NCBI GenBank assembly: GCA_026705925.1
Contig: JAPOZT010000004.1
Location: 124,001 to 188,000 of the forward strand
DNA length: 64,000 bases
Direction of reading: 5' to 3'
Source: Gemmatimonadota bacterium
GTDB lineage: Bacteria > JAAXHH01
In this document: one piece after another, positions 19,047-63,212 of the stretch
Position numbering within the stretch: the stretch's first letter is position 1
Layout of the letters: each line of letters starts with the position of its first letter
The notes under the pieces: generated by a model
Told to the model about the DNA's origin: nothing
Seen by the model: only the letters and a program-made list of their open reading frames with translations
Databases searched by the model: none
Made by a program: the position numbers and the translations under genes

Positions 19047-21788
19047 ATGACCGTTATCACCGCGACCACCCGCCTCGCACGCGAACTCCGTCGGGAACAT
19101 GATCAGGTCCAGGAGGAGGCGGGACGGGCATCCTGGCCTACCGCAGAGATCATGCCGCTGTCCGCATGGCTGACGGATACGTGGAAGAACGAGCTGTTAT
19201 CCGATCACCCGGCGACGGCGGACCTGGCGGCGGAACGCCTGCTCAGTCCGACCGAAGAACGGTTGATCTGGGAGGACGTCATCCGATCCATGGCCGAAGA
19301 CTCGTTGCTGGATATTTCCTCAACGGCGGAGGCCGCTGCCCGATCCTGGGAACTCGTGTGCAACTGGGCTATACCGCTCGACGCCGAAGCGTGGAATGAA
19401 TCCGTAGACGCCAGGACTTTCCTGGGCTGGGTCCGGGCGTTGCAGGCACGTTGCCAACGTAATGGCTGGATTACGAGCGCCGAGATGCCCACGGTTGTCG
19501 CGGACCTCATCGACCGGGGCGCGGCACCGGTTCCCGGGGAGATCGAATTCGCGGGGTTTCTCGATCTTTCGCCGGTGCAGCAACGCCTGATCGACGCCCT
19601 GGCACGCCGCGGCGTGGAGGTCCGTGTACGCGCACACACTTATGAAACCGGCGACGCCACCCGCGTGGGCTTTGCCGATGCCGGCCGGGAGATCCGCGCC
19701 GCCGCCGACTGGGCGCGCCGGTGCCTGGAATGCGATCCGGATGCGCGCGATCCGGCGTACCGGATCGGCATCGTCGTGCCCGGACTGAGCCAGCACAGAG
19801 AAGAGATCGAGCGCGTGTTCGGCGAAGTGCTGCACCCCCGCAGCCGGCTTCGGCCGGATCTCGACCCTGTGCGGTGCTTCAACATTTCCCTCGGTCGGCT
19901 GCTTGATGAACATGCCGTCATCCAGACGGCGTTCCTGTTTCTTGGAATCGACCCGGGGGATCTCACCGTCGAACAGGCCGGCCGCGTGCTGCGATCCCCC
20001 TTTCTGACCGGGGCCGCGGAGGAAATGACCGGCCGGGCCTTGCTGGACGTGGACCTGCGCGCAGGAGGGGCGCTGGACGTGTCCTTTTCGGATGTGATCG
20101 GGCTGGTGCGGAAGCGACGGGGGGATGGCGAGGGCGAGGGCGGGTGTCCCAGACTCGTGACGCTCCTCGTGACCTGGTCGGATTCGTACAAAACGCTTCA
20201 GGCGTCTCGACTACCCAGTGACTGGGCGCCGGTCCTTTCCGCGTTCCTGCGAGACATCGGATGGCCCGGAGACCGCACGCTCGACAGTATCGAATACCAG
20301 ACCCTTGAAGCCTGGAGCAAATCGCTTACCGAGCTGGCCAACCTGGACGACGTGACCGGACGCGTTCCGCTCCAGGGCGCAGTGGATGCGCTGAGGAATC
20401 TGGCATCGGCCCGGCAGTTTCAACCGGAATCCGCGCCGGCCCCCGTCCAGATCCTGGGCGTTATTGAAAGCTCCGGCCTTCGTTTCGATCGGCTTTGGCT
20501 GATGGGCCTGCACGACGGCGCCTGGCCGGCCGATCCCGTGCCCGATCCCTTCATTCCGGTACGCCTTCAACGCCGATACGGCCTGCGCGGGTCGTCGCCG
20601 AACCGGGAGCTCGAGTTCACCCGGATGCTCACCGGCCGCCTTCTTTCGTCCGCGCCTTCGGTCGTCGTAAGCTATCCGGTGCGGGAAGAGGATGCGGACC
20701 TGGCCGTCAGTCCGCTCGTTCGCATGCTGCCCGAAACCTCGGCCGCCGGCCTGGGGATCCCGCCGCCACCCGGCGCCGACGAAGGGATCCGCGGTAACAA
20801 GGAAAGGATGCCCGGCGACGACGAAGGAATCCGCGGCGATGACGAAGGATCTCCCGCCACTTCCGCGCTTGAAGTGTTGGACGACCACTACGGACCGGCG
20901 TGCAGTGACGCGGCGCTCAGGGGCGGGACCTTCCTGTTCAAGCTCCAGGCGGCCTGTCCGTTCAAGGCCTTTGCCGAACTTCGGCTCGGCGCCAGGGCGC
21001 TCGAGGAGCCCGAGCCCGGCCTGAACGCGCTTGACCGCGGAAGGCTCCTGCACCGCGTGCTCGAACGGGTCTGGGGACGGTTGAAGTCTCACGGGCACCT
21101 GCTCGAGGTCACGGAAAAAGGGCTGGCGGACCTGATACGCGGGCACGTCGAACCCGAGGTCCGGCGGATACTTGGTGGACGGTTCGGGCGCAATGCCCGT
21201 CTTGCGGAGATCGAGCAGGCCAGGCTGGTGCGCATCATCGGTGAATGGATGGGGCTGGAACGGCAGCGGAAGCCATTCATGGTGGTCGACCAGGAGGAGA
21301 TACGGACGGTGGAAGTCGGCGGTATCGAGGTGCAAATCCGGGTGGACCGTGTGGACCGCCTGGAAGACGGGAAGCTGGTCATCCTGGACTACAAAACCGG
21401 GGATTGCGGCCCCGCAGATTGGGCGGGCGCGAGACCGGATGAACCCCAGTTGCCTATTTACGCCGTTACCACGGAAACCGCGGTGGCCGCCGTCATGTTC
21501 GCCAGGCTGCGGACGGGAGACCTCGCATTCAGGGGTCTGGCCGAATCCCCGGATATCGCGCCGGGGGTCCGGGTACCGGAAAGGCAGCCGCCGATTTCAC
21601 AGACCATAAGCGACTGGCGGGCGGTGCTGAATGAACTCGGCCGCGGCTTCCGGGAAGGCCGTGCGCACGTGGATCCCAAGGACCCTGTAAAGACGTGCAG
21701 GTACTGCGAACTGCCGTCCCTGTGCCGGATCAGCCAGGGGACGGTGGAACTGGAGGAAGCGGAGGAACAGGAGGATGGCCGTGGTTGA
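19047..21788 (+). CDS. AddB-like PD-(D/E)XK nuclease, probable DNA repair protein
   Basis: The 913-aa protein resembles the probable DNA repair proteins that pair with a UvrD-like helicase in many bacteria (AddB/RexB-like). The N-terminus ITATTRLARELRREHD corresponds to the family start. The helicase-like half lacks a Walker A motif. The C-terminal nuclease has the RVDRVD and ILDYKTGD core (about residues 770-785). A cysteine in LQAACPFKAFAE (near 636) and the three cysteines of CRYCELPSLC (near 882) match the Fe-S cluster of AddB-type nucleases. Residues 578-605 are a low-complexity in-frame repeat (DEGIRG, DDEGIRG, DDEGS). It overlaps its partner gene by 14 bases. Role: double-strand break end processing. 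Confidence 0.88.
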   Translation: MTVITATTRLARELRREHDQVQEEAGRASWPTAEIMPLSAWLTDTWKNELLSDHPATADLAAERLLSPTEERLIWEDVIRSMAEDSLLDISSTAEAAARSWELVCNWAIPLDAEAWNESVDARTFLGWVRALQARCQRNGWITSAEMPTVVADLIDRGAAPVPGEIEFAGFLDLSPVQQRLIDALARRGVEVRVRAHTYETGDATRVGFADAGREIRAAADWARRCLECDPDARDPAYRIGIVVPGLSQHREEIERVFGEVLHPRSRLRPDLDPVRCFNISLGRLLDEHAVIQTAFLFLGIDPGDLTVEQAGRVLRSPFLTGAAEEMTGRALLDVDLRAGGALDVSFSDVIGLVRKRRGDGEGEGGCPRLVTLLVTWSDSYKTLQASRLPSDWAPVLSAFLRDIGWPGDRTLDSIEYQTLEAWSKSLTELANLDDVTGRVPLQGAVDALRNLASARQFQPESAPAPVQILGVIESSGLRFDRLWLMGLHDGAWPADPVPDPFIPVRLQRRYGLRGSSPNRELEFTRMLTGRLLSSAPSVVVSYPVREEDADLAVSPLVRMLPETSAAGLGIPPPPGADEGIRGNKERMPGDDEGIRGDDEGSPATSALEVLDDHYGPACSDAALRGGTFLFKLQAACPFKAFAELRLGARALEEPEPGLNALDRGRLLHRVLERVWGRLKSHGHLLEVTEKGLADLIRGHVEPEVRRILGGRFGRNARLAEIEQARLVRIIGEWMGLERQRKPFMVVDQEEIRTVEVGGIEVQIRVDRVDRLEDGKLVILDYKTGDCGPADWAGARPDEPQLPIYAVTTETAVAAVMFARLRTGDLAFRGLAESPDIAPGVRVPERQPPISQTISDWRAVLNELGRGFREGRAHVDPKDPVKTCRYCELPSLCRISQGTVELEEAEEQEDGRG
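20778..20861 (+). repeat. four in-frame 21-bp units in the AddB-like gene
   Basis: Units begin at 20778, 20799, 20820 and 20841. The first, third and fourth start GACGAAGG and the second is diverged. They encode a charged, Gly-rich linker between conserved blocks. Confidence 0.7.
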
Positions 21789-26299: not shown

Positions 26300-27046
26300 T
26301 CACGCATCGACACTGCCGGGAGCGTGACAGGCCCGGTACGCTCCGTCCTTCAACATCGGGACGCACTCGCTTGCGTCCAAAGCCGCGGCAAGCCGTACAT
26401 CCTCCGCGAATCCCCTGCCGATCAACTCTTTGCCGGACCCAGACGTGCAAAGGACCGATGCCAGGTCGTCCCTGAAGGCCGCAAAGACAGCGGCGGCGGT
26501 TTCGGCTTCCGGCGAACGGGTACCTTCCAGCGCATGGATGACGGCCCCCGCGCCGATCAGGTCTTCGATCGCGGGCCTGAGGGTCTGCTGCTGCTTCCAG
26601 CGTTCTCCCGCGGGGATGATACTGATGCCGGTCTCGTACTGCCGCAATACGCCGGCAAGAGCCGTTGCGTTCCGGAGACAGCCGGCGAAGGTGGGCGTAT
26701 CACCGGTCGTCAAGGATAGCGTAGACCCGTTGGGGGAGGGCAGGACCAGGGCGGTGCCGGCGGGGATGTCCATCAGGGAGGAAGGGGACAGCGAATAACC
26801 GCCCCGTTCGAATTCCCGGGTGGCATTGGCCATCAGCGCATTCCGGGACCTGGCGTAGGCCGCCGCCGAATGGTCCCTGCTGCGGTAAGGGTAGACCCGT
26901 GCCCCGTTTGCTGCCGCGATTTCCACACTGGTGGTAAACGACAGGACGTCGACGATGACCACGGCCCGGCTGTCGGGCAGCAGTTCCTGGAGCCCCTCCA
27001 TGCCCCACTCGCATCGGATATCGAACGAACCCTGGTTGAAGTACAT
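26300..27046 (-). CDS. ComB-like 2-phosphosulfolactate phosphatase family protein
   Basis: The 248-aa protein has ComB-family sequence: MYFNQGSFDIRCEWGMEG at the start, VVIVDVLSFTTSVEIA (metal-binding Asp region), LPSPNGSTLS and IPAGERW. In methanogens ComB acts in coenzyme M synthesis; in bacteria the family is broader and the substrate here is uncertain. The conserved N-terminus fixes the start at 27046, but no Shine-Dalgarno sequence precedes it. The frame is open upstream through an 18-bp tandem repeat in which every unit carries an in-frame ATG with AGG six bases before it, so longer forms starting MPARLT are possible (up to 27112). Confidence 0.87.
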   Translation of the reverse strand: MYFNQGSFDIRCEWGMEGLQELLPDSRAVVIVDVLSFTTSVEIAAANGARVYPYRSRDHSAAAYARSRNALMANATREFERGGYSLSPSSLMDIPAGTALVLPSPNGSTLSLTTGDTPTFAGCLRNATALAGVLRQYETGISIIPAGERWKQQQTLRPAIEDLIGAGAVIHALEGTRSPEAETAAAVFAAFRDDLASVLCTSGSGKELIGRGFAEDVRLAAALDASECVPMLKDGAYRACHAPGSVDA

Positions 27047-27055
27047 CGAAAGCTC

Positions 27056-27131
27056 GCGGTCTAGCCTGGCCGGCATGGTCAGCCTGGCCGGCATGGTCAG
27101 CCTGGCCGGCATGGTCAGCCTGGCGGTCTAG
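27056..27131. repeat. 18-bp tandem repeat flanked by 9-bp direct repeats
   Basis: Three exact copies of CCTGGCCGGCATGGTCAG (27065-27118) plus a partial copy lie between two copies of GCGGTCTAG (27056-27064 and 27123-27131). The right flank contains the stop codon of the small gene at 27128. On the comB strand each unit supplies AGG-N6-ATG. A one-mismatch copy of the 18-mer occurs inside chdC. Confidence 0.9.
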
Positions 27132-30753: not shown

Positions 30754-30912
30754 GACGAATCCTGTGTAAGTAGGGTCTTCCCCGTTACTGTACACCATTG
30801 CGGATGTATTCGGCAACTGCTTTCACTTCCCGTCCGGGGCTGGCGGTGGAATCCGGCGGTGGGTTCCGGATCGCAGCCCTGGACCGCAGTCTCGGCGAGG
30901 AGACGAGGCGGC

Positions 30913-31002
30913 GCGGAGGACAAAGGCTGTGCGGAGGACAAAGGCGACGCGGAGTCCGCGAGGCATGCGGGCCGTACGAACCACGCGAGGCATGCGGGCG
31001 GC
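30913..31002. repeat. 18-bp and 27-bp repeats in the lpdA/pcfJ spacer
   Basis: GCGGAGGACAAAGGC occurs at 30913 and 30931, an 18-bp period. GCGAGGCATGCGGGC occurs at 30958 and 30985, a 27-bp period. All are multiples of nine although the region is a 250-bp intergenic spacer (30754-31003). Confidence 0.7.
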
Positions 31003-32580: not shown

Positions 32581-33810
32581 ATGACCCTGGAAGCCATCAC
32601 CAAGTCCATCACACGCAAGCGCATAACCGAGCTGATTGAAGGGCTGGTCGCCATCCCGTCGGTCACGGGAAACGAACGGGCTCTGGGCGACATGCTCCAT
32701 GGGTATTTTGGCGAGATCGGCCTTGACGAGGTACACCGGATTCCGGTGGAGGATTCGGGCGACACGCTGGCCGTGCGGATACCCGGTCGAGGGAACGGCA
32801 ACGGTCGCGAGAACGGCAACGGTCGCGGGAACGGCAACGGTCGCGGGAACGGCCGCGCGTTCATGCTCAATTTCCACCAGGACACCTTCGACGCATGCGA
32901 TGGCTGGGAAACGGACCCGTGGTCGCCCGTGGTCAAAGACGGATGCTTGTACGGGCTGGGCGCACACGACATGAAGGCCGGTGCGGCGGCCGTACTCGCC
33001 GCGGTGGAGGCCATCGTACGGTCCGGGGCGGAACTGGCCGGCGACCTGATCGTCTCCGCCACGACCGACGAGGAGAACTGGTCCCGGGGCGCCCACGCCC
33101 TGATCGACAGCGGGCTGCTCGCGGGGTGCGAAGGCTGCCTCATCCCCGAACCTACCCCGCCGGGACGCCTGCGCATCGGTTCGCGGGGCCGTCACGTGAT
33201 CAAGATCGACCTGGCGGGCAGGACGGCCCACGCCGCATACACGGGAGAGGGCGTCAACGCCGTTCACGACGCCGCGAAGATCGTCACGGCCCTGGACCGG
33301 ATCGAACTCGGCTGGAACGAGGAGTACGACCTCGGCGGTACGATCTGCGTCATCGAAATCAGCGGGGGAAAAAACATCATCCTCGTGCCGGAACACGCGC
33401 AGGTCGTCCTCGACCGGCACATCCTGCCCGGGCAGTCGATCGAAAAGGCCGCGGAGGACATCGAGACGCTGATCCGGTCCCTGCCGATCGCGTCGGAGTG
33501 GCGTGTCACATGGGACGACCGGCCCACGCCGGCGCCGGCGCCGTACATCGTGGATCCCGGTTCGAAGTTCGTCCAGGCTACCCGGAAACGGGTCGAAGAG
33601 CAGCTCGGCCGGCCCGTGCGATTCGCCCTGGCCCGGAGCGTGGCCGACACGAATCACTTTGCCGTGACCGGGGGCATCCCGACGCTGGTGTACGGCCCCG
33701 AAGGGGGAAACACCTGCCAGGCCAACGAATTCGTCAGTATCGAGTCCACCCTCCGTGTCGCGCGGGCCTATTGCGGCATCGTGACCGATATGCTGGGAGT
33801 CGCGCGCTAG
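32581..33810 (+). CDS. M20 family metallopeptidase (ArgE/DapE-like)
   Basis: The 409-aa protein is a di-zinc M20 hydrolase. Metal ligands are visible: His in NFHQDTFDACDGW, bridging Asp in GLGAHDMKAG, the Glu pair in TTDEENWSRGAH, Glu in IPEPTPPG and His in SVADTNHFAVTGG. The lid domain begins RGRHVIKIDLAGRTAHAAYT. An insertion of three 18-bp units (GNGNGR repeats, residues 71-92) lies just before the first metal-binding strand, where related enzymes have a short loop. The start chosen is the ATG at 32581; an earlier in-frame ATG at 32518 is possible. Its stop is six bases from the next gene, so the two probably form an operon. Substrate unknown. Confidence 0.92.
   Translation: MTLEAITKSITRKRITELIEGLVAIPSVTGNERALGDMLHGYFGEIGLDEVHRIPVEDSGDTLAVRIPGRGNGNGRENGNGRGNGNGRGNGRAFMLNFHQDTFDACDGWETDPWSPVVKDGCLYGLGAHDMKAGAAAVLAAVEAIVRSGAELAGDLIVSATTDEENWSRGAHALIDSGLLAGCEGCLIPEPTPPGRLRIGSRGRHVIKIDLAGRTAHAAYTGEGVNAVHDAAKIVTALDRIELGWNEEYDLGGTICVIEISGGKNIILVPEHAQVVLDRHILPGQSIEKAAEDIETLIRSLPIASEWRVTWDDRPTPAPAPYIVDPGSKFVQATRKRVEEQLGRPVRFALARSVADTNHFAVTGGIPTLVYGPEGGNTCQANEFVSIESTLRVARAYCGIVTDMLGVAR
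32791..32856 (+). repeat. 18-bp in-frame tandem repeat in the M20 gene
   Basis: Units GGGAACGGCAACGGTCGC at 32791, a one-base variant at 32809 and an exact copy at 32827 are followed by a partial unit. They encode GNGNGR repeats. Confidence 0.9.
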
Positions 33811-33816: not shown

Positions 33817-34899
33817 ATGTTTCAACGCCTTCTTATCATTGCCCTCTTCGTTGTGGTCGCGATCCTGCTCGTCCGATCGATCGCGAACTGGTTCAACCGG
33901 GGCGGCTGGATTGGCCGGGGACAGTCCGAAATCAAGGGCAGCTGGACGGTGGTCGAACCGCTGGGCAGGCTCGGCAAAGCCGCCGAAAACATCGTGAAAT
34001 CGTCGTTGAGGCTCGAAGACGAGCATGATGTGCGGAAGGTGGCGGTACTGTTCGACGTGGCGCACCGGACCGTTCGGAACCTCCCCATAGATTCCGTCGA
34101 GTTGCGTATCCTGGCCGACGAGGCATCCGAGCCATTACGCGCCGTACTCTACCGGGACGAGGCCGTATACGCGCCCGGGTGGCTGCTGTTCGCTGCGGAC
34201 CGCGTTCAGGACGTCCACCCCGACATGTACGCGTACGAGGTCAAGCGGCTCACTCTTTCCGCCTACCGGGAGGTCTTCCCTTCGGACGGGGAAACGGTAC
34301 TCCCCCCGGAGCGGACCCTGGCGCCCGTCGCCTACGGAACTCCGCCGGCGGTCGGCGATCGGTACAGCCACCTGGGCAGCCTGGGCGCGGAATACACCCG
34401 GGACGCAGCCTATATCGCCCTGCTCGAGTGCCCGGCGGAGATGCTGCCTGACGAAGCCATGCTGCCCTTGTTGCAGTTGCTCCTCAGGACGGAGGACGAA
34501 CCCGTACCGGATGGCGAGACCCCGGTAGACGAGCTGCTGGCGCGGTACGATGACCGCCTTTATGCGTCGGCCGTCCACGTTATGAACCGATCGGGACCGG
34601 CTGCAAAGGCCAGACCGCCTGCGCCGGACGGTAAGGACGGGCCAACTGCAAAGACCGCGCCGGACGGGCAGTCCGGTCCGCCTGGACCGCCTGGACCGCC
34701 TGGACCACCCATGCCTGGCGCCTACTCGCCCGCACTTTTCCGGCTGATCGGCGCGTGGCCGCGGTCATCGGCGGAACCGCTGTTCCGTGCGGCCTTCGAA
34801 TCGGGTTGGAACGACAGTGCGCGCTTTCTGCCTGAATCGGGATGGGCACAAGACCTGAAGGCCGTGTTTCGAGACAGTCCCTACGGCGCGCCGGCATAG
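33817..34899 (+). CDS. membrane-anchored protein of unknown function
   Basis: The 360-aa protein has one N-terminal membrane segment (residues 4-22, RLLIIALFVVVAILLVRSI) and a mostly soluble remainder. Residues 260-298 form a low-complexity linker (DGKDGPTAKTAPDGQSGPPG, then repeated GPP) produced by a 9-bp tandem repeat. The conserved part before it includes DDRLYASAVHVMNRSG, and the last 60 residues look folded again. No family is recognised. It follows the M20 gene by six bases and is probably co-transcribed with it. Confidence 0.75.
   Translation: MFQRLLIIALFVVVAILLVRSIANWFNRGGWIGRGQSEIKGSWTVVEPLGRLGKAAENIVKSSLRLEDEHDVRKVAVLFDVAHRTVRNLPIDSVELRILADEASEPLRAVLYRDEAVYAPGWLLFAADRVQDVHPDMYAYEVKRLTLSAYREVFPSDGETVLPPERTLAPVAYGTPPAVGDRYSHLGSLGAEYTRDAAYIALLECPAEMLPDEAMLPLLQLLLRTEDEPVPDGETPVDELLARYDDRLYASAVHVMNRSGPAAKARPPAPDGKDGPTAKTAPDGQSGPPGPPGPPGPPMPGAYSPALFRLIGAWPRSSAEPLFRAAFESGWNDSARFLPESGWAQDLKAVFRDSPYGAPA
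34675..34710 (+). repeat. 9-bp in-frame tandem repeat (GPP)
   Basis: Four units near GGACCGCCT (34675, 34684, 34693, 34702) encode a short collagen-like run. Looser related text starts near 34594. Confidence 0.85.
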
Positions 34900-35884: not shown

Positions 35885-36547
35885 ATGCCCAGGAAAAACA
35901 GACCCAACAGCGCCACGACGCCCCGTCGTCAGAAGTCGAAACGCGGACGTCAGCCAGACCGACGGGCGCATGACGTTGATGGTCTGCCCGGTGATAGCTT
36001 GACCGCTGATGGCCTCGCCGGTGAACGCATGGCCGACGAAGGTCTGGCCGGCGGATTCTCGGACGCCGGTGCTCACGCGGGAACCGGAACGGGGCAACCG
36101 CCGTCGGGCCGGGTACTCGCCGTAGATTACGGTGAAAGACGCGTCGGGCTTGCCCTGAGTGACCCGACCGGCATGATCGCCCAGGGGCTGGAGACGATCC
36201 AGACGGCAGGCTCCGGCGAAACCCTCGCATCCATCGTGGACATCGTCGAGGAGAAGCAGGTCCGGGAGATCATCCTTGGCCTGCCGGTCCACATGGACGG
36301 AACCGCGGGCGAAATGGCCGGGAAGGTCGAGGAGTTGGCGGACCAGCTGCGAAAGATGGTGTCCTGCGACGTACGGACGTGGGACGAGCGGTTGACCAGC
36401 GTTTCGGCCCGTCGGGCCATGCATGAAATGGGCGGAGCGACCCGGGGAGACAAGGGCAGCCTCGACCGGATCGCCGCCACGCTGCTGCTGCAGAACTACC
36501 TGGATTTCCGCCGGGATGTGGATAAGGAACCGGATACACGCGCATGA
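35885..36547 (+). CDS. ruvX: Holliday junction resolvase-like protein RuvX/YqgF with long N-terminal extension
   Basis: The conserved RNase H-fold core starts near residue 75 (RVLAVDYGERRVGLALSD). It continues with IILGLPVHMDGTAGEMA, the acidic WDERLTS motif and DRIAATLLLQNYL. YqgF proteins process the 16S rRNA 5' end and may act on junctions. The core of about 145 aa is of normal length; the first 74 residues are an addition, basic at first (MPRKNRPN, then RRQKSKRGR). Three 30-bp imperfect repeats then encode the DGLPGDSL, DGLAGERM and EGLAGGFS segments. A start closer to the core cannot be excluded, as GTG codons are available near 36109. The gene overlaps mltG by four bases (ATGA). Confidence 0.9.
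   Translation: MPRKNRPNSATTPRRQKSKRGRQPDRRAHDVDGLPGDSLTADGLAGERMADEGLAGGFSDAGAHAGTGTGQPPSGRVLAVDYGERRVGLALSDPTGMIAQGLETIQTAGSGETLASIVDIVEEKQVREIILGLPVHMDGTAGEMAGKVEELADQLRKMVSCDVRTWDERLTSVSARRAMHEMGGATRGDKGSLDRIAATLLLQNYLDFRRDVDKEPDTRA
35975..36064 (+). repeat. three imperfect 30-bp units in the ruvX extension
   Basis: Units start at 35975, 36005 and 36035, each with a GATGG or GAAGG, CT(G/C) and CCGG core. They encode xDGLxGxxx repeats. Confidence 0.7.
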
Positions 36548-37539
36548 GAAAGCTGCTTACCGCTGCCATCGTCCTCGCCGTGCTGGCCGGAACGGCCGCG
36601 CTGGTCGTGGCCTACCAGTTCTCCAACCTCTCGGTCGAGCGAGACACCGTCATCCCGTTCACCGTCGAACCCGGCATGACCCTGTCCGAGGTCGCCGGGG
36701 AACTGGAGGACCGGGGCGTGGTTCGTCACGCGATCCTGTTCGAACTGCTGGCGCGTTACCGGGGGGTGGGACACGGCATTAACGCGGGACGTTACGAAAT
36801 CGAGTCCTACATGGATGCCGGTCAGATCCTGAGCATGCTCACCGAGGGCAGGATCGTGGTCAATCGCGTCAACGTCCCGGAGGGTCTGACCATCCCGGAA
36901 ACGGCCCGGGTCCTGCGGGCCAGGATCGGCATCGATTCCACCACGTTCGTACAACGGGCCGCCGATCCGGCGAACGTGCGATCGCTGGGGATCGAAGCGC
37001 CGACCCTGGAAGGATACCTGTACCCGGCGACCTACAACATGTACCCGGACATGACGGTCGATGACATCCTCAAGCAGATGACATCGCGGTACCTGCAAAC
37101 CATCACCGAGGCGTACCGGGAACGGGCGGATACACTGGGGTACAGCGTTCACGAGATTGTGACCCTGGCTTCCATCATCGAGCAGGAAGCGATGGTAGAC
37201 GACGAAAGGGATATCATTTCGGGGGTTTTTCACAACAGGCTGCAAAGGGGCATGCGCCTGGAGGCCGACCCCACTGTCCAGTACGGGATCGGCCGGCCGA
37301 ACATGAGACTCTACGAGAAGCACCTCTCCCACCCGTCACCCTACAACACGTACCTGCACGCCGGATTGCCGCCGGGACCGATCTGCAGTCCCGGCAAGGC
37401 GTCCATTCACGCCGCGCTCTATCCCAAGGACGTGGACTATCTCTTCTTCGTAGGCCGGGGAGACGGCAGGCACATCTTTTCCGTAACCAACCGCGAGCAC
37501 AACCGGGCACGGGCCCAGGTCAGGCGCCTGCGCAATTGA
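36544..37539 (+). CDS. mltG: endolytic transglycosylase MltG
   Basis: The 331-aa protein has an N-terminal membrane anchor (residues 5-24) and a YceG-like domain. MltG cuts nascent peptidoglycan strands in the periplasm and sets glycan length. The catalytic Glu is in LASIIEQEAMVDDERD, followed by FHNRLQRGMRLEADPTVQYG and the C-terminal YNTYLHAGLPPGPICSPGKA. A LysM-like segment (FTVEPGMTLSEVAGELEDRG) follows the anchor. The length is usual. It overlaps the ruvX stop by four bases; the ruvX-mltG pairing occurs widely in bacteria. Confidence 0.96.
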   Translation: MRKLLTAAIVLAVLAGTAALVVAYQFSNLSVERDTVIPFTVEPGMTLSEVAGELEDRGVVRHAILFELLARYRGVGHGINAGRYEIESYMDAGQILSMLTEGRIVVNRVNVPEGLTIPETARVLRARIGIDSTTFVQRAADPANVRSLGIEAPTLEGYLYPATYNMYPDMTVDDILKQMTSRYLQTITEAYRERADTLGYSVHEIVTLASIIEQEAMVDDERDIISGVFHNRLQRGMRLEADPTVQYGIGRPNMRLYEKHLSHPSPYNTYLHAGLPPGPICSPGKASIHAALYPKDVDYLFFVGRGDGRHIFSVTNREHNRARAQVRRLRN

Positions 37540-37603
37540 TCTCGACAAGCGGTGCTGATCTCGACGATCGGAATTGATCTTGAGGTTGGATCGCTGATAG
37601 CCG

Positions 37604-42840: not shown

Positions 42841-45800
42841 TGGATGCCTCCACGAACCATAGGCTGGCGGCCGAGATCCGAGACCTGCTCCCCCGATGCA
42901 CGCTCAAGGACCGTCGGGACATCCAACGTGGGCTTAAAACCGCACGCAATAAACGCGGCGGGAGAGGGAGCGGTGCACGCAGCGAGCGCGATAGCCACGG
43001 CGGGAGTGGCGGCGGTGCGCGTAGCGGGAGCGATGACCACGGCCGGCTTCGCAGGCTGAAGGAGCGGGCGGACGCCTCGGTCCGCCTCGTGGAGGCGCGC
43101 CTTCAATCGGACTCCTCCGTCGACATCGACCCCCAGCTGCCCATTTCAACCCGAAAAGATGAGATCCTCGAAATCCTGCGCGGCCACCCGGTGGTCATCG
43201 TGACGGGGGAGACCGGTTCGGGCAAGACGACACAGTTGCCCCGGATCTGTCTCGAAGCCGGCCGGGGCGTTTACGGCCGCATCGCGTGCACGCAGCCCCG
43301 GCGCGTCGCCGCCCTTTCGGTCTCGCGCCGCATCGCCGAGGAGCTCGGCGCGACCTGGGGACGGGAAGTCGGGTGCAAGATACGGTTCACGGACGAGACC
43401 GTGGCCGAGACCCGCATCAAGATGATGACCGACGGCATGCTGCTCGCCGAGATACAGCACGATCCGGACCTGCTTGAATACGACACGATCATCATCGACG
43501 AGGCCCACGAACGCAGCCTGAACATCGACTTCCTGCTCGGCTACCTGCGTCTGCTGATCCGGCGCAGGAAGGACCTCAAGATCGTGGTCACCTCGGCGAC
43601 GATCGACGCCGCCGCTTTCTCTAACGCCTTCGGCCAGGCGCCGGTCGTCGAGGTGTCCGGACGCCTGCACCCGGTGGAAATCCGCTATCTGCCCCTCGAG
43701 GATACCCGGGGCGAATCCGAAGTATATACCTATGTCGACGGGGCGGTGGACGCGGTTGACAGGATCATGGAAGAACCCGGCCGGGGCGACATCCTGGTGT
43801 TTCTCCCCACGGAGAAGGACATCCACGAGACGCGCAGGAGGCTGGAAGGCCTGTCCTACCGCCACACCGACGTGCTTCCGCTCTTCGGCCGGCTGACCAG
43901 CGCGGACCAGCAGCGGGTCTTCCGGCCGGGGAACAACCGGCGCATCGTCGTGGCCACGAACGTCGCCGAGACCTCGCTGACCATACCGCGCATCAAATAC
44001 GTCGTCGACACCGGTCTCGCGCGGATCAGCCGTTACGCCGCACGGACCCGCACCCAGCGCCTGCCTATCGAACCCATTGCGAAAAGCAGCGCCCTGCAAC
44101 GGGCCGGACGGTGCGGTCGCGTGTCGGGAGGCGTCTGCCTTCGGCTCTACAGCGAGGCCGACCTCGAAAGCCGGCCCGAATTCACCACGCCCGAGTTGCA
44201 GCGCGCCAATCTCGCCGAAGTCATCCTGCGCATGCTGGCGCTGAAACTGGGCGACGTCCACGCTTTCCCCTTTCTCGACCCGCCCACGCCCCAGGCGGTC
44301 CGGGACGGGTTCGGGCTGCTCGTCGAATTGGGGGCCATCGACCGGGAACGGCGATTGACCGGCCGGGGCAGGGACATGGCGAGACTGCCGGTATCGCCCA
44401 CGGTCTCACGCATGCTGCTGCAGGCCCGGCAGGAAGGCGCCCTGCAGGAGGTCCTCGTGATCGCGTCGGCCATCAGCATACAGGACCCCCGTGTAAGGCC
44501 GCTCGATCAGCAGGAACAGGCGGACGCCGAACACCGCAAATTCAGGAACAGAACCTCGGATTTCCTGACTCTTCTCAATATCTGGGAGGCCTTTCACCGC
44601 ACCTTCGAGCACCTGCAGACCCAATCCGCCATGCGCAGGTTCTGCCGGCAACACTACCTGTCCTACAACCGCATGCGCGAGTGGCGCGATATCTACGTGC
44701 AACTCCGCCGTGCGCTTCGGGAATCAGGCGGTTTTCGAGGAAGGGCGGGGCGGGCGGGAAACGCGCACTACGACGCGATCCACCGGTCGATCCTCAGCGG
44801 ACTGCTCAGCCAGATCGCGGAACACCGGGAAGGCAACCTCTATACCGGCGCCCGGAGCCGCACCGCCATGATCTTCCCCGGTTCCGGTCTCTTTCTACGT
44901 AAACAGGTCGACCAGCATCCGAGGAAGAAATCCGCCGAACGGGATGAGGCCGATACCGGGCAGGACGGTTCGGATGGAACACGGAACGGGAAGGGAGCCG
45001 CGGCCTGGATCGTGGCCGCGGAGATGGTCGAGACCAACCGGCTCTATGCGCGCACGGTAGCCCGGATACAGCCCGGGTGGGCGGCCGAACTGGGCCGCCA
45101 CCTGTGCCGCGCTTCCTGCTCCGATGCGAGATGGGACCGGTCCGCCGGTCGGGTGACGGCCACGGAGACGTTGCACCTGTATGGCTTGATGGTCGCCCGC
45201 CGGACTGTCGACTACAAGAAGATCGATCCCGATGACGCGACGCGTATCTTCATCCGCGACGCACTGGTCGGCCTGGCCGGCGACGACCTGGTTGGCAACG
45301 GCCTTCGAGCCCGGCATGCCTTCCTGGAGCACAACCGCGGGATACGGCGGGACGCCGAGATCTGGCTGCTGCAAAACCGAAACGCCTATCGCGTCGATCT
45401 CGACGAGGCCGCCTTCCGATTCTACGAGGAATGGATCTCCGGGGTGTCTTCGGTACACGATCTCAACCGGCTGGTGAAGACCGCCGGCGCGAAAAACCCT
45501 TCCTTCCTGCACATGGAAATCGGGGATCTCACGGGAACCGAGGAGGAAGAGGACGGGGCGGTCAGTCAGGATGGACCGGGCAGTCCGGGCAGTCCGGGCC
45601 AGCCGGGCCGGCCGGAGGGCTTTCCGGAGCATTTCAACCTGGAAGGCGATCTGCTTCCCCTGCAGTATGCCTGCCGGCCGGGCCGGGAAGAGGATGGGGT
45701 CACCCTTTCGCTGCCGGCCGACCGGGTCCATCTGCTGGATCCCGATACGCTGGAATGGCTCGTGCCCGGCCTGCTGTGCGAGAAGATCGAAGCCCTGCTC

Positions 45801-50965: not shown

Positions 50966-52031
50966 ACCACCCGGCGAAGTGCCGCCCCACTACCAGCCCG
51001 ATTCCGTCGAGACCTATTGGCGCGTCCCCTACGGCGAACGGGCGGCCGATGCCCGCGCGTGGGCGGCGGAACACGGCATCCGACCCTCGGTCGAAGATGA
51101 ATACCGCACCGCGCTGCTCCTGGTGGACTGCCAGAACACCTTCTGTCTCCCCGAATTCGAACTCTTCGTGGGAGGTCGGAGCGGCCGGGGCGCCGTGGAG
51201 GACAACAAGCGGCTCTGCGCCTTCATCTACCGCAATCTCCATTCCATCACGGAAATCATCCCCACGATGGACACCCACACGGCCCAGCAGGTCTTCCATC
51301 CGGTGTTCTGGGTAGACCGGGACGGAGGACATCCCACCGGGGGCGAGACCATCATCACCCCGGAGGACGTTGAAGCGGGAGCGTGGCGCGTCAATCCGGC
51401 CGTGGAGGCCTGGTACAGCGACCGGTTCGATCTTTCCGCCTATGCCTTGCATTACGTCCGGCGCCTCACGCGGGACGGCAAGTATCCCCTCATGATCTGG
51501 CCCTACCACGCCATGCTCGGGGGGATCGGCCACGCCCTGGTGTCCGCCGTGGAGGAGGCGGCGTTCTTTCACGGCATAGCCCGGGTCCGGCAGACGCGTT
51601 TCGAGATCAAGGGGAACCACGCCCTCACGGAAAACTACTCCGCGTTGCGCCCTGAAGTGACGGAGGATGCCGAAGGCCGCCCGCTGAGTGTGAAGAACAC
51701 CCCGCTGGGTGTACAGAACACCCCGCTGGGTGTACAGAACACGCCGCTGGTCGACCACCTGCTGACCTTCGACGCCGTCATCGTGGCCGGGCAGGCCAAG
51801 AGCCATTGTGTGGCGTGGACGGTGGAGGATCTTCGGTCGGCGTTCGCGGCGTGCGAGCCGTCCATGATCCCGCGTGTCTGCCTGCTGGAGGACTGCACCT
51901 CGCCGGTCGTCGTGCCCGGTGTAATCGACTTTACCGAAGAGGCGGAGGAGGCCTTCGGCCGGTTCGCCGACGCGGGCATGCACCGGGTGCGTTCCACCGT
52001 GCCCATGGACCAATGGGGTCTTACGGGCTGA
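50955..52031 (+). CDS. nicotinamidase/isochorismatase-like cysteine hydrolase
   Basis: The 358-aa protein has the cysteine hydrolase fold: Asp in [16 protein letters not shown] and the nucleophile Cys in [17 protein letters not shown]. It is much longer than ordinary nicotinamidases (about 200 aa), with extra sequence before the first strand and between [14 protein letters not shown] and the cysteine. A 21-bp tandem repeat (LGVQNTP) lies in the middle. The start at 50955 overlaps the nadE stop by 11 bases; an ATG at 50910 is also in frame. Its position after nadE suggests a role in pyridine nucleotide salvage, but nicotinamide as substrate is only an inference. Confidence 0.85.
51681..51750 (+). 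repeat. 21-bp in-frame tandem repeat
   Basis: Units at 51681, 51702 and 51723, plus a 7-bp partial copy, encode (L)[13 protein letters not shown] and LGVQNTP, just before the catalytic strand of the hydrolase. Confidence 0.9.
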
Positions 52032-53290: not shown

Positions 53291-54082
53291 GTGAGCGAAG
53301 AAACCGGGAAAATCCCCGATATCCTTGAACGCGGAGCGCCCGTCGACGGACAACCCCAGACGGCCGAAACGCGGCTGTACATGCAGCTCAATGTGTTCAC
53401 CCTGTCCGGCACTGGATCCGCTGGTCAGCCTGGCCAGCATGGTCAGCACGGCCAGCACGGCCAGCCTCGGCAGACCCGGACTATGGCAGACGACATCGCC
53501 GCCAGGCTGGGGGATTCCGGCCTGGACGCCGCGGTGTACCTCGATGTCAACGATCCCGTGGGCATCGGCGTGCTGTTTCTCGCCGAAGATCCCGATACCT
53601 TCGTATCCGATGTCCGGGACCTGCTGACGGAGCCACCTTTCGATGTCCTGACCCGCCGCGGGTCCATGACAATGCTCGGCAGGACCTACTCCATGGGATT
53701 CGAGCCGGATCTGATGGAATCGCTCATCCACCGGCCGCGCAACACCGTGCTCAACCCAGACTGGCCCTGGGTCATCTGGTATCCGCTGCGGCGCAACGGC
53801 GCCTTCGCACGACTCGAACACAAGGAACAGCGCCAGATCCTGATGGAGCACGCCCACATCGGACGGGCCTACGGCCGGGCCGACTTCGCCCACGACATCC
53901 GTCTGGCCTGCTACGGGCTGGACGAGGCGGACAACGACTTCGTCATCGGGCTGATCGGCAAGGAACTCTACCCGCTGTCGCGGGTCGTGCAGGACATGCG
54001 CAAGACCCAGCAGACCGCCTTGTACATCGATTCGCTCGGACCGTTCTTCGTCGGCAAGAAGAACTGGTCGAGCGACCCGTAA
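53291..54082 (+). CDS. ChdC/HemQ-like coproheme decarboxylase (chlorite dismutase family)
   Basis: The 263-aa protein begins at a GTG. Its C-terminal half matches the ChdC/HemQ family: WVIWYPLRRNGAFARL (catalytic Tyr region), LMEHAHIGRAYGRADF (proximal His region), then VVQDMRKTQQTALYIDSLGP and FFVG. ChdC converts coproheme III to heme b with peroxide in the coproporphyrin-dependent pathway. Residues 45-58 are a 9-bp-repeat insertion (GQPGQHGQHGQHGQP) in the first strand-loop region, just after YMQLNVFTLSGTG. It shares the spacer with the divergent ferrochelatase, so the two steps are likely co-regulated. Confidence 0.88.
   Translation: MSEETGKIPDILERGAPVDGQPQTAETRLYMQLNVFTLSGTGSAGQPGQHGQHGQHGQPRQTRTMADDIAARLGDSGLDAAVYLDVNDPVGIGVLFLAEDPDTFVSDVRDLLTEPPFDVLTRRGSMTMLGRTYSMGFEPDLMESLIHRPRNTVLNPDWPWVIWYPLRRNGAFARLEHKEQRQILMEHAHIGRAYGRADFAHDIRLACYGLDEADNDFVIGLIGKELYPLSRVVQDMRKTQQTALYIDSLGPFFVGKKNWSSDP
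53423..53467 (+). repeat. 9-bp in-frame repeat in the chdC-like gene
   Basis: Five units alternate GGTCAGCCT, GGCCAGCAT, GGTCAGCAC, GGCCAGCAC, GGCCAGCCT. Bases 53429-53446 match the 18-bp comB-leader unit with one mismatch. Confidence 0.9.
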
Positions 54083-54644: not shown

Positions 54645-54685
54645 GTCTCCGGCCCGCCTGGTCCGTTTTGACCGTCTTGCCTGCC

Positions 54686-54730
54686 CGGTCTGTTCGGTCT
54701 GCTCGGTACGCTCGGACTGCGTGGTCTGCC
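54686..54730 (-). repeat. 9-bp repeat before trmH
   Basis: Five units near CAGACCGAG on the minus strand (plus-strand starts 54686, 54695, 54704, 54713, 54722). They keep the trmH frame open, so they are either an N-terminal extension or a leader. Confidence 0.75.
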
Positions 54731-54754
54731 TGGACGGCACGCGACACCTTTCGT

Positions 54755-56502: not shown

Positions 56503-57407
56503 AGCACGACCTCCTGCATATCGAACACCGGGCCGGCGACGCAGACCCGCTCGTATCGTCGGGATGAAGACCGTTCACCGGGGGCGGCGCCCTGGGCGGT
56601 ACCAGGGGCGGCGCCGGGGGCGAGACCGGGGGCGGCACAGGCCACGACACAGGCCATGCACACACCCACGCCGCAGGGCATGATCCCCTCGAGGGAGACC
56701 TGTCCGTCGATACCGGCTTCCCGGGCGATTTCCTGGCAACGCCGCATCATGGGCGTCGGTCCACAGGCATAGAGATAGGCGCATCGCCGGGGTGAGGAGG
56801 CCAGTTCCTGTTCCAACAGGTCCGTCACCAGGCCGTGGTGGCCCGTCGTCCCATCGTCGGTTGCCAGCCTGACGTCGACCCCGTATTCGCGGAATTTCTC
56901 TTCGCTGCTCAAGAGACCCGCCGTCGCCGCGCCGAAGAGTATCGTCATGTCTGCCGCCCGAGCCCGTCTATCCCTCGCCGTCTCCTGGACCAGGGAGAGA
57001 AAGGGCGCTACACCGACGCCCCCGGCGACCATGACCACCGGCCGTCCCGGGCGCACCGGCTCGAACGTCCTTCCCAGGGGTCCGAGCACGTCGACTTTTT
57101 CTCCGTGGCGCCGCGTCGCCAGGATCTCGGTTCCGCCGCCGACGATCCGGTATATGAGCCCGAAAACGCCGCGTTCCGGATCGCGTTCGGCAATGCTGAA
57201 GGGTCGCCTGAGCAAGGGGGTGTGACGGAGCCAGGTCTGCCTGCTGCTGTCTTCCGAAACATCGGAAGCAATCAGGTGTACGAAGTGACCGGGCAGGGCG
57301 TGTCGTGTGATTTCGGGTGCCAGCAGGTCGATCCAGTACAGGCCGGGACCGATTTCACGGTTGGCGAGGATCTCGGCGTCGTACTGGCAGATGGGGATGG
57401 TGGACAT
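56499..57407 (-). CDS. pyrK: dihydroorotate dehydrogenase B, electron transfer subunit
   Basis: The 302-aa protein carries FAD and a [2Fe-2S] cluster and transfers electrons from PyrD to NAD. The FAD segment is LLRRPFSIAER and the NAD-binding one is VMVAGGVGVAPFLSLV. The cluster cysteines are in GIMPCGVGVCMACVVAC, with the last in RVCVAGPVFD. Between the cluster cysteines and the final one, five 12-bp units insert about 20 residues of APGLAPGAAPGTAQGAAPG, where other PyrKs have only a short loop. The gene is followed by pyrD with an ATGA overlap. Confidence 0.95.
   Translation of the reverse strand: MSTIPICQYDAEILANREIGPGLYWIDLLAPEITRHALPGHFVHLIASDVSEDSSRQTWLRHTPLLRRPFSIAERDPERGVFGLIYRIVGGGTEILATRRHGEKVDVLGPLGRTFEPVRPGRPVVMVAGGVGVAPFLSLVQETARDRRARAADMTILFGAATAGLLSSEEKFREYGVDVRLATDDGTTGHHGLVTDLLEQELASSPRRCAYLYACGPTPMMRRCQEIAREAGIDGQVSLEGIMPCGVGVCMACVVACAAPGLAPGAAPGTAQGAAPGERSSSRRYERVCVAGPVFDMQEVVL
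56581..56640 (-). repeat. 12-bp in-frame repeat in pyrK
   Basis: Five imperfect 12-bp units (plus-strand starts 56581, 56593, 56605, 56617, 56629) encode AAPG/LAPG/TAQG blocks inside the Fe-S domain. Confidence 0.85.
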
Positions 57408-57448: not shown

Positions 57449-59287
57449 TCATTTGTCCGGGGGCGGGTCCGCGGCCGGGGCCGCAGCCGGGGGCGTGTCC
57501 GCAGCCGGGACCGGGGCCGCAGCCGGGGGCGTGTCCGCAGCCGGGACCGGGGCCGCAGCCGGGGCGGGAAGCAGTTCCTCCATGAAGCGTATCTTGTCGC
57601 GGACGGAACTTGCCTGTTCAGACCGGGGATGGCGTTCCACGATCTCACGGTAGTGGTCGAGGGCGGTTTCCGGATCGTCGTAATACGTCTCGGCGAGCCA
57701 GCCCAGCGCATAGCGAGCTTGCGGTGCGAATTCACCATCCGGATCCCTTTGCAGGACCACTTCGTATAGCCCGCGCGCGGAGTCCGGCCGGTCGGCTTCG
57801 AAAAGCAGCCGTTCCGCCTCGGCGAAAAGCCGGTCCGGGGGCAGTTCACCTTCTACAGGCTTCGACTGCAGGATGGCTGCTTCCACGGCGTGTGTGGTCC
57901 CGGGATACCGCACGGCGATGGCATCGAAGACGGAGCGCGCGCTTTCCGTGTCATTCACCATCTCGCCGAGTATCCAGCCCCTTGCGAAAGCGGCCTTGGC
58001 GGCCACGGAGGGATCATTCGACGCTTCTTCTATGGCGCGGTACTGGCTCAGGGCCGAGTCGGCCATATCCAATTGGAAAAGGTACAGTTCCGCCAGCTGG
58101 AATCGCAGGCCGATCGCGTCTTCTGTCAACTTCGCGTAGTTCGACGAGGTATTCGATTCGGGACCGACGCGGCTGTTTAACGCATCAATTGCGGCCAGCA
58201 AGTTTCCAAGGTTTCCGTCCAGGCGCTGCAGTTCGCGTATGGCGCGATGCTTTTGGTCGGCCCGATCGCCGACCCAGAACGAACGCGGACTCGTGCGCCG
58301 CGCCTGGTTATACCACTGTTCCGTTAGATCGAGATCGCCCGCGGTCCGGTGCAGTTCCCCCAGCTCGTACATGGCCCGGGAGACTACCTCCGCGCGACTC
58401 CGGTCGGCTTCGAAATCGGTGATGAGCGACTCGTAGGTATAGACGGCCGATTCTTCCAAGTCCATTTCGACCTGGCAAGTGGCTATCGCCAGCATGACTT
58501 CGGGGTGATAGTCGTTGTAGGCGCGCTGATCCAGCAACGACTCGTATATACCCAGCGCGGCCGGCAGATCCCCTTCTCGCCGCAGGCTTTCGCCCAGCAT
58601 GAAACTCGCCTCGAACTTGAGCCTCCGGGTACGTGCCTGCTCGATGGCCTGGGTCAGTTGTTCCCGGGCTTCAGCGAACCGATGCTCCTCCAGCCTGGCA
58701 CGTGCGATGTAGTACCTGGCCTCCGCCTCCCGTTCATCGCCGGGGCGCGTTTCCAGCACTTCCTGGAACCGAGCGACGGCTTCCCCATAGCGTGCGCCGC
58801 CCAGGGCGATCTTTCCCCGGAGCATCAGGGCTTCCGGTATACGGTCGCTGTCGGGAAACTCCCGGACGAAGCGGTCCAGCTGCTCATCCGCCCGGGTAGA
58901 ATCACCCGCATTGAGTAGGCTGTTGCCCAGGGAGAAAACGCAGTGGACCGTGAATTCGCCTTCCGGGAACAGCCTCAGCACTTGTTCATACCGCTTGATG
59001 GCCTGCAGATGCTGTCCCTGGATCGCCCGGACGTCGCCGATCAGGACCAGCGCGTCGTCTACCAGGGAACTACCGGAGTGATCCCGCAGGACGAGGCCCG
59101 CGTTCTCGACGGCAAGCTCGTAGGAGGTCATGGCCAGGGGTGGTATGGCGCCATCGGGTGTCTGCTGGTTGAGGCGTATCCGCTCCCCTTCCTCGAACGC
59201 TTTCCTGGCGTTGTAGAACGTATTGTAGTACGCGCATCCGAAGACCACGCACACCAGGGCAAACAGGATCAGGGAAGTCCTGCCCAT
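57449..59287 (-). CDS. TPR-repeat outer-membrane lipoprotein
   Basis: The 612-aa protein starts with a lipoprotein signal peptide whose lipobox is VVFGC, followed by AYYNTFYNARKAFEEGERI, so Cys18 would be lipidated. The body consists of many tetratricopeptide-like helical pairs (for example EGEFTVHCVFSLGNSLLNAG and DEREAEARYYIARARLEEHR), resembling YbgF/BamD-type periplasmic scaffolds. The C-terminus is a Pro/Ala-rich tail made of 36-bp repeats (PAAAPVPAADTP). It begins one base after the regulator gene upstream and ends 41 bp before pyrK. Its role is probably envelope-related, but the partner is unknown. Confidence 0.85.
   Translation of the reverse strand: MGRTSLILFALVCVVFGCAYYNTFYNARKAFEEGERIRLNQQTPDGAIPPLAMTSYELAVENAGLVLRDHSGSSLVDDALVLIGDVRAIQGQHLQAIKRYEQVLRLFPEGEFTVHCVFSLGNSLLNAGDSTRADEQLDRFVREFPDSDRIPEALMLRGKIALGGARYGEAVARFQEVLETRPGDEREAEARYYIARARLEEHRFAEAREQLTQAIEQARTRRLKFEASFMLGESLRREGDLPAALGIYESLLDQRAYNDYHPEVMLAIATCQVEMDLEESAVYTYESLITDFEADRSRAEVVSRAMYELGELHRTAGDLDLTEQWYNQARRTSPRSFWVGDRADQKHRAIRELQRLDGNLGNLLAAIDALNSRVGPESNTSSNYAKLTEDAIGLRFQLAELYLFQLDMADSALSQYRAIEEASNDPSVAAKAAFARGWILGEMVNDTESARSVFDAIAVRYPGTTHAVEAAILQSKPVEGELPPDRLFAEAERLLFEADRPDSARGLYEVVLQRDPDGEFAPQARYALGWLAETYYDDPETALDHYREIVERHPRSEQASSVRDKIRFMEELLPAPAAAPVPAADTPPAAAPVPAADTPPAAAPAADPPPDK
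57459..57560 (-). repeat. 36-bp tandem repeat in the TPR lipoprotein tail
   Basis: Two exact 36-bp copies (57489-57524 and 57525-57560) and a diverged shorter copy (57459-57488) encode PAAAPVPAADTP repeats next to the stop codon. Confidence 0.9.
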
Positions 59288-61967: not shown

Positions 61968-62004
61968 TGAATTCGCTACGATACCACCGGAGGAACGCCG
62001 TTTC

Positions 62005-63087
62005 ATGTCCTTGATCACCCGGTACGTGCTCCGCCTGTTCATCACCGCCATCGCCGTCAGCCTGATCGCCTTCGTCAGCATCTTCTTCGTGGTCGATCTC
62101 ATCGAGCAGCTGGACCGTTTCCTCGACCGCGAGGTGGCCCCGGTATACATCGCGCTCTACTACGCCTACTACACGCCCTATATCTTCGTACTCACGATTC
62201 CCGTCAGCCTGCTGCTCGCCAGCCTGTATACCTTCGGCCAACTGACCAGGCTGGGCGAGCTGACCGCCATGAAGGCATCTGGGCTAAGCGTGTACCGATT
62301 GCTGCGGCCCCTGCTCCTGGTCAGCGCGGTGGTAAGCGGCTGCCTGTTCTGGGCCGGTGAATGGCTCGTACCCCATACGAGCATGAAACGGGCCGAAATC
62401 CAGTCGGAGCACGTGGACCTGCGGGGCGGCGTGGGACAGCACATACGAAACGACGTGTACTTCAGAGGAGAGGGAGGGCGCCAGTTCTATATCCGCGTAT
62501 TCGACGGTCTCGACGCGGAAGGCACAGGGGTTTTCGTCACCGAATTCCAAGACAGCCTCGTCTCCAGTGTGCTCGAGGCGGAAAGTGCCCTCTGGAAGGA
62601 CGGTCGCTGGCTGCTTTCCAACGGGGTGGAACGGCGGTTCCAGGCAGGAGGCGGACTATCCGAATACACTACCTTCGCCGAACGGGAACCGGACGGATGG
62701 TCCGTAACGCCGGAGGATTTCATGCGGGGACAGAAACGTCCCGAAGAGATGAGCTACGGCGAACTCGACCAGTTTATTCAGAATGTCCGGCGCGGAGGCG
62801 GAGACGTGCAGGGCTACCTGGTAGACCTCAACCTGAAGATCGCCTTCCCCAGCGCGGGCCTGATTATCGTGCTTCTGGGCGGCGCGCTGGCCACTCACAT
62901 GAGACGAGGTGGTGTCGCGGTGGGATTTGCCCTGAGTATCGGTATCTGTTTCATCTACTGGGGGCTGCTCCGCTTTACCCAGGCCTTCGGGCACGCCGGA
63001 TTGCTTGAGCCCATGGCCGCGGCCTGGGGCGCCAACGCCCTCTTCTGCCTGCTGGCCCTGATTCTGCTGGTCAGAGCGCCGAAATGA
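62005..63087 (+). CDS. lptG: LPS export permease LptG
   Basis: The 360-aa partner of LptF has the same architecture. It starts MSLITRYVLRLFITAIAVSL, carries VSLLLASLYTFGQLTRLGEL after the third helix, and ends with membrane segments through ANALFCLLALILLVRAPK. GGAGGA lies about ten bases before the chosen ATG; the frame is open upstream to 61948, which would overlap lptF. The final codons LVRAPK plus stop are the first copy of a 44-bp tandem repeat that continues downstream. Confidence 0.93.
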   Translation: MSLITRYVLRLFITAIAVSLIAFVSIFFVVDLIEQLDRFLDREVAPVYIALYYAYYTPYIFVLTIPVSLLLASLYTFGQLTRLGELTAMKASGLSVYRLLRPLLLVSAVVSGCLFWAGEWLVPHTSMKRAEIQSEHVDLRGGVGQHIRNDVYFRGEGGRQFYIRVFDGLDAEGTGVFVTEFQDSLVSSVLEAESALWKDGRWLLSNGVERRFQAGGGLSEYTTFAEREPDGWSVTPEDFMRGQKRPEEMSYGELDQFIQNVRRGGGDVQGYLVDLNLKIAFPSAGLIIVLLGGALATHMRRGGVAVGFALSIGICFIYWGLLRFTQAFGHAGLLEPMAAAWGANALFCLLALILLVRAPK

Positions 63088-63212
63088 GACTCGCTGCGCG
63101 CGGCAACACCCTGGTCAGAGCGCCGAAATGAGACTCGCTTCGCGCGGTAACACCCTGGTCAGAGCGCCAAAATAGAACTCGCGTCGCCCGGCAACACCGC
63201 CTGGTCAGTCTG
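63067..63212 (+). repeat. 44-bp tandem repeat duplicating the lptG 3' end
   Basis: Units begin at 63067, 63111 and 63155 (period 44) with a fourth partial unit at 63201 after a 46-bp step. Each starts with the coding end of lptG; the first contains its true stop codon. Copies diverge with distance (for example TGA becoming TAG-like text in the third). Confidence 0.9.

Follow-up and report, generated by a model that had tools for sequence, protein, structure and literature searches.

Dense, length-variable short tandem arrays and a recurrent 9-bp unit in an uncultured bacterial lineage

We analyzed a 64,000-nucleotide stretch of bacterial DNA (the window; positions 124001–188000 of contig C23 in a 3.77-Mb draft genome of 38 contigs, labelled G000), in which short tandem arrays lie inside conserved genes. 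Arrays were called with Tandem Repeats Finder (TRF; period 6–100, score ≥50, overlaps merged), which returned 18 nonoverlapping arrays in 20–64 kb of the window and one in 1–20 kb. Pfam and NCBIfam placed the host genes as a PD-(D/E)XK (AddB-like) nuclease, an M20 peptidase, RuvX, GT2, a DUF3418 helicase (HrpA-like), ChdC, a PyrK-like protein, and a TPR protein; three further labels (nicotinamidase-like, GT-C-like, and membrane protein) come from an earlier reading of the sequence or from us, with no Pfam match and either none or one far below the cut-off in NCBIfam. A sequence-only reading of this DNA had described arrays in 12 coding loci, and all 12 are present, in open frames and with periods divisible by three. 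Among close relatives, where the flanks are mostly >83% identical, the length of each of the 12 differs between orthologous sites, and 15 of the 18 window arrays vary between species; the arrays at 38255 and 61777 have one length in every anchorable relative and are ordinary conserved sequence, and the array at 30906 is not comparable because the neighboring region differs in relatives. The units are imperfect (TRF percent matches), run head to tail at about 6–100 bp, and differ in copy number between orthologous sites of different species, as do variable number tandem repeats (minisatellites).

A search with the HrpA-like helicase found the closest named relatives among metagenome-assembled genomes (MAGs) labelled Candidatus Latescibacterota or Gemmatimonadetes. 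We compared 11 congeners, all draft metagenome assemblies with one genome per species. HrpA identity to the window is 89–92% for G001, G002, G005, G006, G008, and G010, and 78–80% for G003, G004, G007, and G011; in G009 the match comes in two pieces (72 and 86%). The host group of uncultured Latescibacterota is probably sponge-associated, as judged from the literature on sponge Latescibacterota and from MAG names of the relatives that we take to point to sponge origin, the records themselves stating no host. Sponge Latescibacterota are treated in PMC12993501.

Orthologous sites in relatives differ in copy number and often in the unit itself (Table 1). The presence/absence and copy-number differences that the sequence-only reading had looked to for support are thus observed, and the sharing of insertions by distant orthologues, which it had named as evidence to the contrary, is not: congeners at about 80% identity lack several insertions, HrpA of G003 and G007 carrying neither the array at 42949 nor that at 45576. 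Over 140 gene-species pairs from 30 genes, with terminal gaps excluded, 72 of the 101 internal indels of at least three residues fall at arrays, as do 810 of the 1084 internal indel residues. Several arrays read as stepwise copies of a native segment; PLGVKNT of the nicotinamidase-like protein, for example, is a single native segment at loci L015, L018, and L020, and is present in two copies at L016, three in the window, and five at L021. No spread by a mobile element, which the earlier reading had entertained, was seen, several arrays being local copies of native segments and the aligned flanks containing nothing else inserted; no search was aimed at mobile genes. Against plasmids, the nicotinamidase-like protein matched 10 records, all at <60% identity, with one cysteine hydrolase among the three matches listed.

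Table 1 Short tandem arrays of the window, their location, and their extent at orthologous sites (bp values are lengths between anchors)
Array	Positions	Strand	Gene or spacer	Extent in relatives
21-bp (GDDEGIR type)	20771..20849	+	AddB-like PD-(D/E)XK nuclease 19047-21788, upstream of nuclease domain	40-103 bp (six genomes including window)
18-bp GGTCAGCCTGGCCGGCAT	27058..27124	-	start of ComB-like 26300-27112; overlaps predicted N-terminus	33-37 bp in four relatives, 89-91 bp in G008 and window
18-bp spacer array	30906..30954		downstream of lpdA (31004-32431, minus strand)	
18-bp (GRGNGN)	32784..32853	+	M20 peptidase 32491-33810, just before peptidase domain	40-100 bp
9-bp (GPP)	34678..34706	+	membrane protein 33817-34899	
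30-bp	35981..36051	+	N-terminal extension of RuvX 35885-36547	35-131 bp
19-bp	37530..37580		end of gene 36544-37539 and following spacer	
9-bp GGACCAGGC, read as PGG	39945..39986	-	GT-C-like 38684-40117	absent in G007, about 1.5 units in G001 and G008, 5 in G005
9-bp GGACCAGGC unit, read as ADQ	41381..41429	+	GT2 40120-41637	about 1.5 units in G007, many in G002
42-bp	42949..43043	+	near N-terminus of HrpA-like helicase 42678-46982	absent in G007 and G003
9-bp (PGS/PGQ)	45576..45608	+	DUF3418 region of HrpA	absent in G001, G003, G007
21-bp (PLGVKNT)	51680..51750	+	nicotinamidase-like 50910-52031	
18-bp (GQPGQH)	53422..53467	+	ChdC 53291-54082	
9-bp (score 49)	54681..54729	-	start of SpoU methylase 54093-54740 and spacer	
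24-bp	56577..56636	-	before Fe-S segment of PyrK-like 56499-57407	
36-bp	57475..57564	-	C-terminus of TPR protein 57449-59287	absent in G001, G007, G011
44-bp	63067..63208		across 3' end of LptF/G gene 61948-63087 and spacer	

High array density is a property of the whole lineage. In 898 kb from seven species there are 247 arrays (27.5 per 100 kb at score ≥50; pooled counts are not independent, since orthologous arrays are common to several species), with densities per 100 kb of 29.7 for the window, 20.8 for 375 kb sampled from G000, and 27.9–38.6 for the six close relatives. Shuffling gave 0 for the window and 0.5 for the G000 sample, and shuffled sequence as a whole gave 0–1.3 per 100 kb with one value of 3.6; the density that the sequence-only reading had called unusual is so, and the genome-wide rate lies above expectation. 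Five sister species of the genus have 30 arrays in 330 kb, or 9.1 per 100 kb (G003: 15.0, G007: 7.1, G011: 7.7, G009: 4.3, G004: 0), and further relatives have 2.3 (G012), 11.2 (G013), 8.8 (G014), and 0 (G015), the values for G004, G009, G012, G014, and G015 each coming from 14–44 kb only. Among comparison loci, all of them HrpA neighborhoods and some with vague organism labels, density is 4.9 per 100 kb in 12 other Latescibacterota-like loci and 9.2 in 61 mostly Verrucomicrobial loci at 63% guanine-cytosine (GC) content; unrelated bacteria, of lower GC (0.30–0.57), have 14 arrays in 298 kb. Strong arrays (score ≥80) number 7.5–21.8 per 100 kb in the high species and 0–5 in all other sets. It is true that the compared genomes are draft metagenome assemblies and that two of the 18 TRF calls in the window are conserved sequence, but an assembly artefact or chance low complexity of GC-rich DNA is hardly credible as an explanation, given that shuffles and the mostly Verrucomicrobial loci of like GC are far lower, that the same sites carry arrays in separately binned species, and that ordinary reads should be long enough to cross the arrays.

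Periods are multiples of three in 124 of the 127 coding arrays of the seven species and in 30 of the 88 spacer arrays, the latter being the chance third (genes were called by a codon-score heuristic, so that some arrays are misclassed, such as the G005 copy of the GT-C array, L099 14001, counted as spacer; 32 gene-edge arrays, 14 of them multiples of three, were left out). Spacers are 4.8 times denser in arrays than genes. Codon-multiple periods in genes together with the chance third in spacers suggest duplication that is blind to frame, followed by selection removing the damage. Genes show an excess of multiples of nine (73 of the 124 arrays with multiples of three); in spacers such periods make up 12 of the 88 arrays, or 12 of the 30 with multiples of three (difference to genes: P = 0.07), so that the claim of the earlier reading that spacer periods are multiples of nine does not hold. 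Of the spacer arrays which it had placed before comB and lpdA, the first is there, although overlapping the predicted N-terminus; the 18-bp array at 30906 is downstream of lpdA rather than before it, and the TRF list at score 40 has no period-27 array.

The excess of nines in genes is what protein-level selection for peptides such as collagen-like G-X-Y would give, the arrays then being adaptive linkers instead of mutational by-products, and Gly does occupy at least 75% of every-third positions in 22 of the 73 coding arrays with multiples of nine vs. one of the 51 others with multiples of three. We nevertheless consider this quite improbable: the other 51 of the 73 are not collagen-like, those that reach 75% are short, several relatives lack them, arrays also occur in spacers, and one DNA unit is read in three frames as unlike peptides (see below). 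Hairpin-driven expansion was rejected, since folding is no stronger in coding arrays than in controls of matched GC (mean z = 0.03, n = 116); in spacer arrays it is slightly stronger (mean z = −0.59, n = 80). The fixed length expected of transposon target duplications does not fit the arrays, spacer periods being spread over 9–45 bp. Structure models were built from six-row alignments (mean pLDDT, the predicted local distance difference test, 51.9 and 40.0), and from them we use only one hint, of low confidence, that the ChdC array may form a coil between a strand and a helix.

One 9-bp unit, GACCAGGCN, recurs in tandem at dozens of unrelated loci. With matches within a few dozen bases merged as one, tandem loci number 26–33 per genome in the three genomes counted (G006: 33, G008: 26, G010: 27, of which 25 were read). 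The two-unit 17-mer GACCAGGCGGACCAGGC (≤1 mismatch) has 64 matches in G000, 30–77 in the six close relatives, and 36, 9, 23, and 24 in G003, G004, G007, and G009, respectively. Reading of 49 sites from five species, with orthologues entering more than once, places the unit on the sense strand in 38, encoding Ala-Asp-Gln (ADQ) in 20, Pro-Gly-Gly (PGG) in 12, and Thr-Arg-Arg (TRR) types in six; it is antisense in seven and unclear or noncoding in four (G010 alone: 19 sense, four antisense, and two unclear or noncoding). An antisense case (LVG) is a third variable site in HrpA (L102 4684–4709 and relatives), where one seed in G001 corresponds to four perfect units in G010. Outside the genus, 392 kb of other Latescibacterota and relatives had no tandem sites of GACCAGGCN, and in 1.1 Mb of mostly Verrucomicrobial loci a single one appeared at two mismatches and none at one. 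In an exact three-unit search, five viral contigs (L278–L282) matched the 9-bp family.

A reversed-pattern control was discarded because the unit is mirror symmetric, and permuted units of the same composition were used instead. Among 140 such circular units in the 898 kb, GACCAGGCN has 15 sites, the next best has two, and the mean of the others is 0.13. Within G000 alone, perfect two-copy ACCAGGCGG occurs at four sites and other listed units at one. Shared 12-mers link 14 pairs of G000 arrays (null mean 2.6, maximum 6), and shared 14-mers link eight (null 0.4, maximum 3; 60 draws). The CTGGYC core is present in 16 of 97 G000 arrays vs. 5.6 expected (0 of 500 draws), in seven of 44 coding arrays (4 of 500 draws), and in four of 36 spacer arrays (46 of 500 draws); the GGACCAG core that the sequence-only reading had seen shared among several loci does recur at unrelated ones. 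Neither fold energy nor peptide permissiveness explains the preference for this unit (GACCAGGCN ranks 122 and 54 of 140, respectively), and a role as uptake sequence or Chi-like word was rejected, single-copy unit words being near expected frequency outside arrays.

These data make GACCAGGCN a tentative candidate for a gene-less, self-propagating tandem family that would spread over the chromosome by sequence-specific copying or expansion and be tolerated since whole units keep the frame and all three sense frames are stop-free. In one form, its arrays would give rise to new loci through ectopic template switching or short-tract conversion, as a minimal dispersed element without genes of its own. 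The 9–77 two-unit matches in ten congeners besides the 64 of G000, the 27 loci of G010, the use of all three sense frames, the 15 sites vs. at most two for any of 139 same-composition units, and the excess of shared 14-mers all fit this form. We still think it unlikely, as some sites have local near-match seeds, many loci have, by eye, the same ninth base throughout, which local expansion would produce, and no donor tract with matching flanks was seen. The single near-match seeds in relatives (GT2 in G007 and the third HrpA site in G001) favor local expansion with a sequence preference, ectopic copying being the less likely route. Such a preference could in principle come from a sequence-specific enzyme, for example one that nicks or modifies GACCAGG-like words and so stimulates local slippage: the unit contains CCWGG and GGWCC words, and its specificity is not accounted for by composition, folding, or peptide. 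This is improbable, however, the candidate enzyme being only hypothetical and single-copy unit 9-mers showing near-expected frequency outside arrays. Of the 12 family stretches compared from G008, seven match a G010 family locus by their flanks (one of them over one flank) and five match none of those in the G010 set, although up to two of the five may pair with two G010 loci outside the set; these five suggest that family sites probably come and go.

Repair genes were compared as a possible cause of the lineage effect. Loss of mismatch repair was rejected, MutS and MutL each being matched in 16 of 16 genomes and lying over the cut-off in 15 (MutS of draft G004 is partial). MutS (L175 and relatives) has a variable Gly-rich linker in high-repeat species and keeps its C-terminal QLSLF motif, the tail being retained in the readable high-clade rows (G000, G001, G005, and G008). 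RecJ, XseA (ExoVII), and Y-family polymerases were found in all nine genus genomes searched and PolA in eight, draft G004 being the one without. Retention of mutS, mutL, recJ, polA, xseA, and the Y-family polymerases does not account for the lineage effect. SbcD was not found in eight of nine genus genomes (G000–G008), G006 giving a weak partial match below the cut-off, and it was found in G014, G015, G017, and G018 from other orders and phyla. Absence of SbcD could favor repeats in general, and the missing detectable sbcD is a possible background factor, lower-repeat G007 and G003 also being without it. Ku-dependent end joining of staggered breaks was rejected, with PF02735 in none of nine genus genomes and one of 14 overall.

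We consider lineage-wide high turnover of short tandem duplications the best explanation of the arrays, with a probability of about 0.78. Out-of-register copying, by replication slippage or template switching, would duplicate local sequence regardless of frame, and selection would remove frame shifts and insertions into folded cores, so that arrays would accumulate in linkers, loops, and protein termini. Copy number would then change by further slippage, and the unit GACCAGGCN would expand or get copied far more readily than others. Several observations weigh against this explanation. The recurrence of one unit at dozens of loci is not expected from plain local slippage, and no tested gene separates high- from low-repeat sisters (9–10 of 12 genus genomes, with G010 and G011 outside the searches). 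Few gaps, 29 of 166 in genes and 12 of 86 in spacers, passed a strict test of equality with their neighbor (controls: 1.4 and 0.6), which multi-unit gaps would probably fail. The ChdC site in G007 and G011 holds a different sequence, not one native copy. The densities of G003 and of distant G013 (the latter over 80 kb) are intermediate, so that the contrast between high and low species is graded, and rates of turnover are inferred between species, with one genome each, not between strains.

Other features of the window stand apart from the short arrays. On the minus strand, a 2735-codon open reading frame (7516–15723) contains a 267-bp tandem repeat in about ten copies (11452–14113) and two more copies at 14247–14786; the product would be a long protein of repeat domains, of a different kind from the short arrays. 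Positions 3540–4134 carry two tRNA-Lys genes and a tmRNA in tandem. At 29050–30906, a PcfJ-like gene lies beside a stretch of about 2.3–2.6 kb between anchors in five of seven relatives vs. 73 bp, the remaining two relatives having 0 and 51 bp; the length difference suggests gene replacement beside lpdA.

In the open-access literature searched, no text on Latescibacterota and tandem repeats together was found. Rickettsia palindromic elements are dispersed palindromes inserted in frame in unrelated housekeeping genes, and the arrays resemble them in being in-frame insertions in such genes; they differ in their short head-to-tail units and in that coding arrays show no extra folding. Repeats of Ehrlichia ruminantium are likewise genome-wide and variable in copy number in a host-associated bacterium, with units reportedly longer and mostly intergenic. 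In-frame coding repeats that vary in number are also known from Legionella pneumophila, whose Philadelphia genome has 26 intragenic repeats, seven of them polymorphic, according to PMC2639597, vs. 127 coding arrays in 898 kb over seven species here, the selection criteria being different. Of the phenomena described elsewhere, we found none nearer than the tandem repeats that Borg extrachromosomal elements of archaea carry (PMC9879509); these are also genome-wide, fast evolving, located in genes and spacers, and adding protein segments, there described as disordered. The frame rule is similar: Borg periods are divisible by three in all cases in open reading frames but in only 14–38% of cases in spacers, compared with 124 of 127 and 30 of 88 here. 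Borg repeats are reported to be perfect and A-enriched, nearly all of their units being unique (PMC9879509). Ours, by contrast, lie on chromosome-sized contigs of a bacterial species group (up to megabase size) and in housekeeping enzymes, are GC-rich and imperfect, and have one unit common to many loci.

In the conserved proteins compared, most length change within this species group comes from short tandem duplications, and the same genus includes low-repeat sisters; the high- and low-repeat species are a natural comparison for what controls minisatellite birth in bacteria. Array loci would be useful for marking strains of uncultured bacteria, and they can lead alignment and assembly astray. 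The 9-bp family, being sequence-specific, suggests a process that goes beyond simple slippage or composition.

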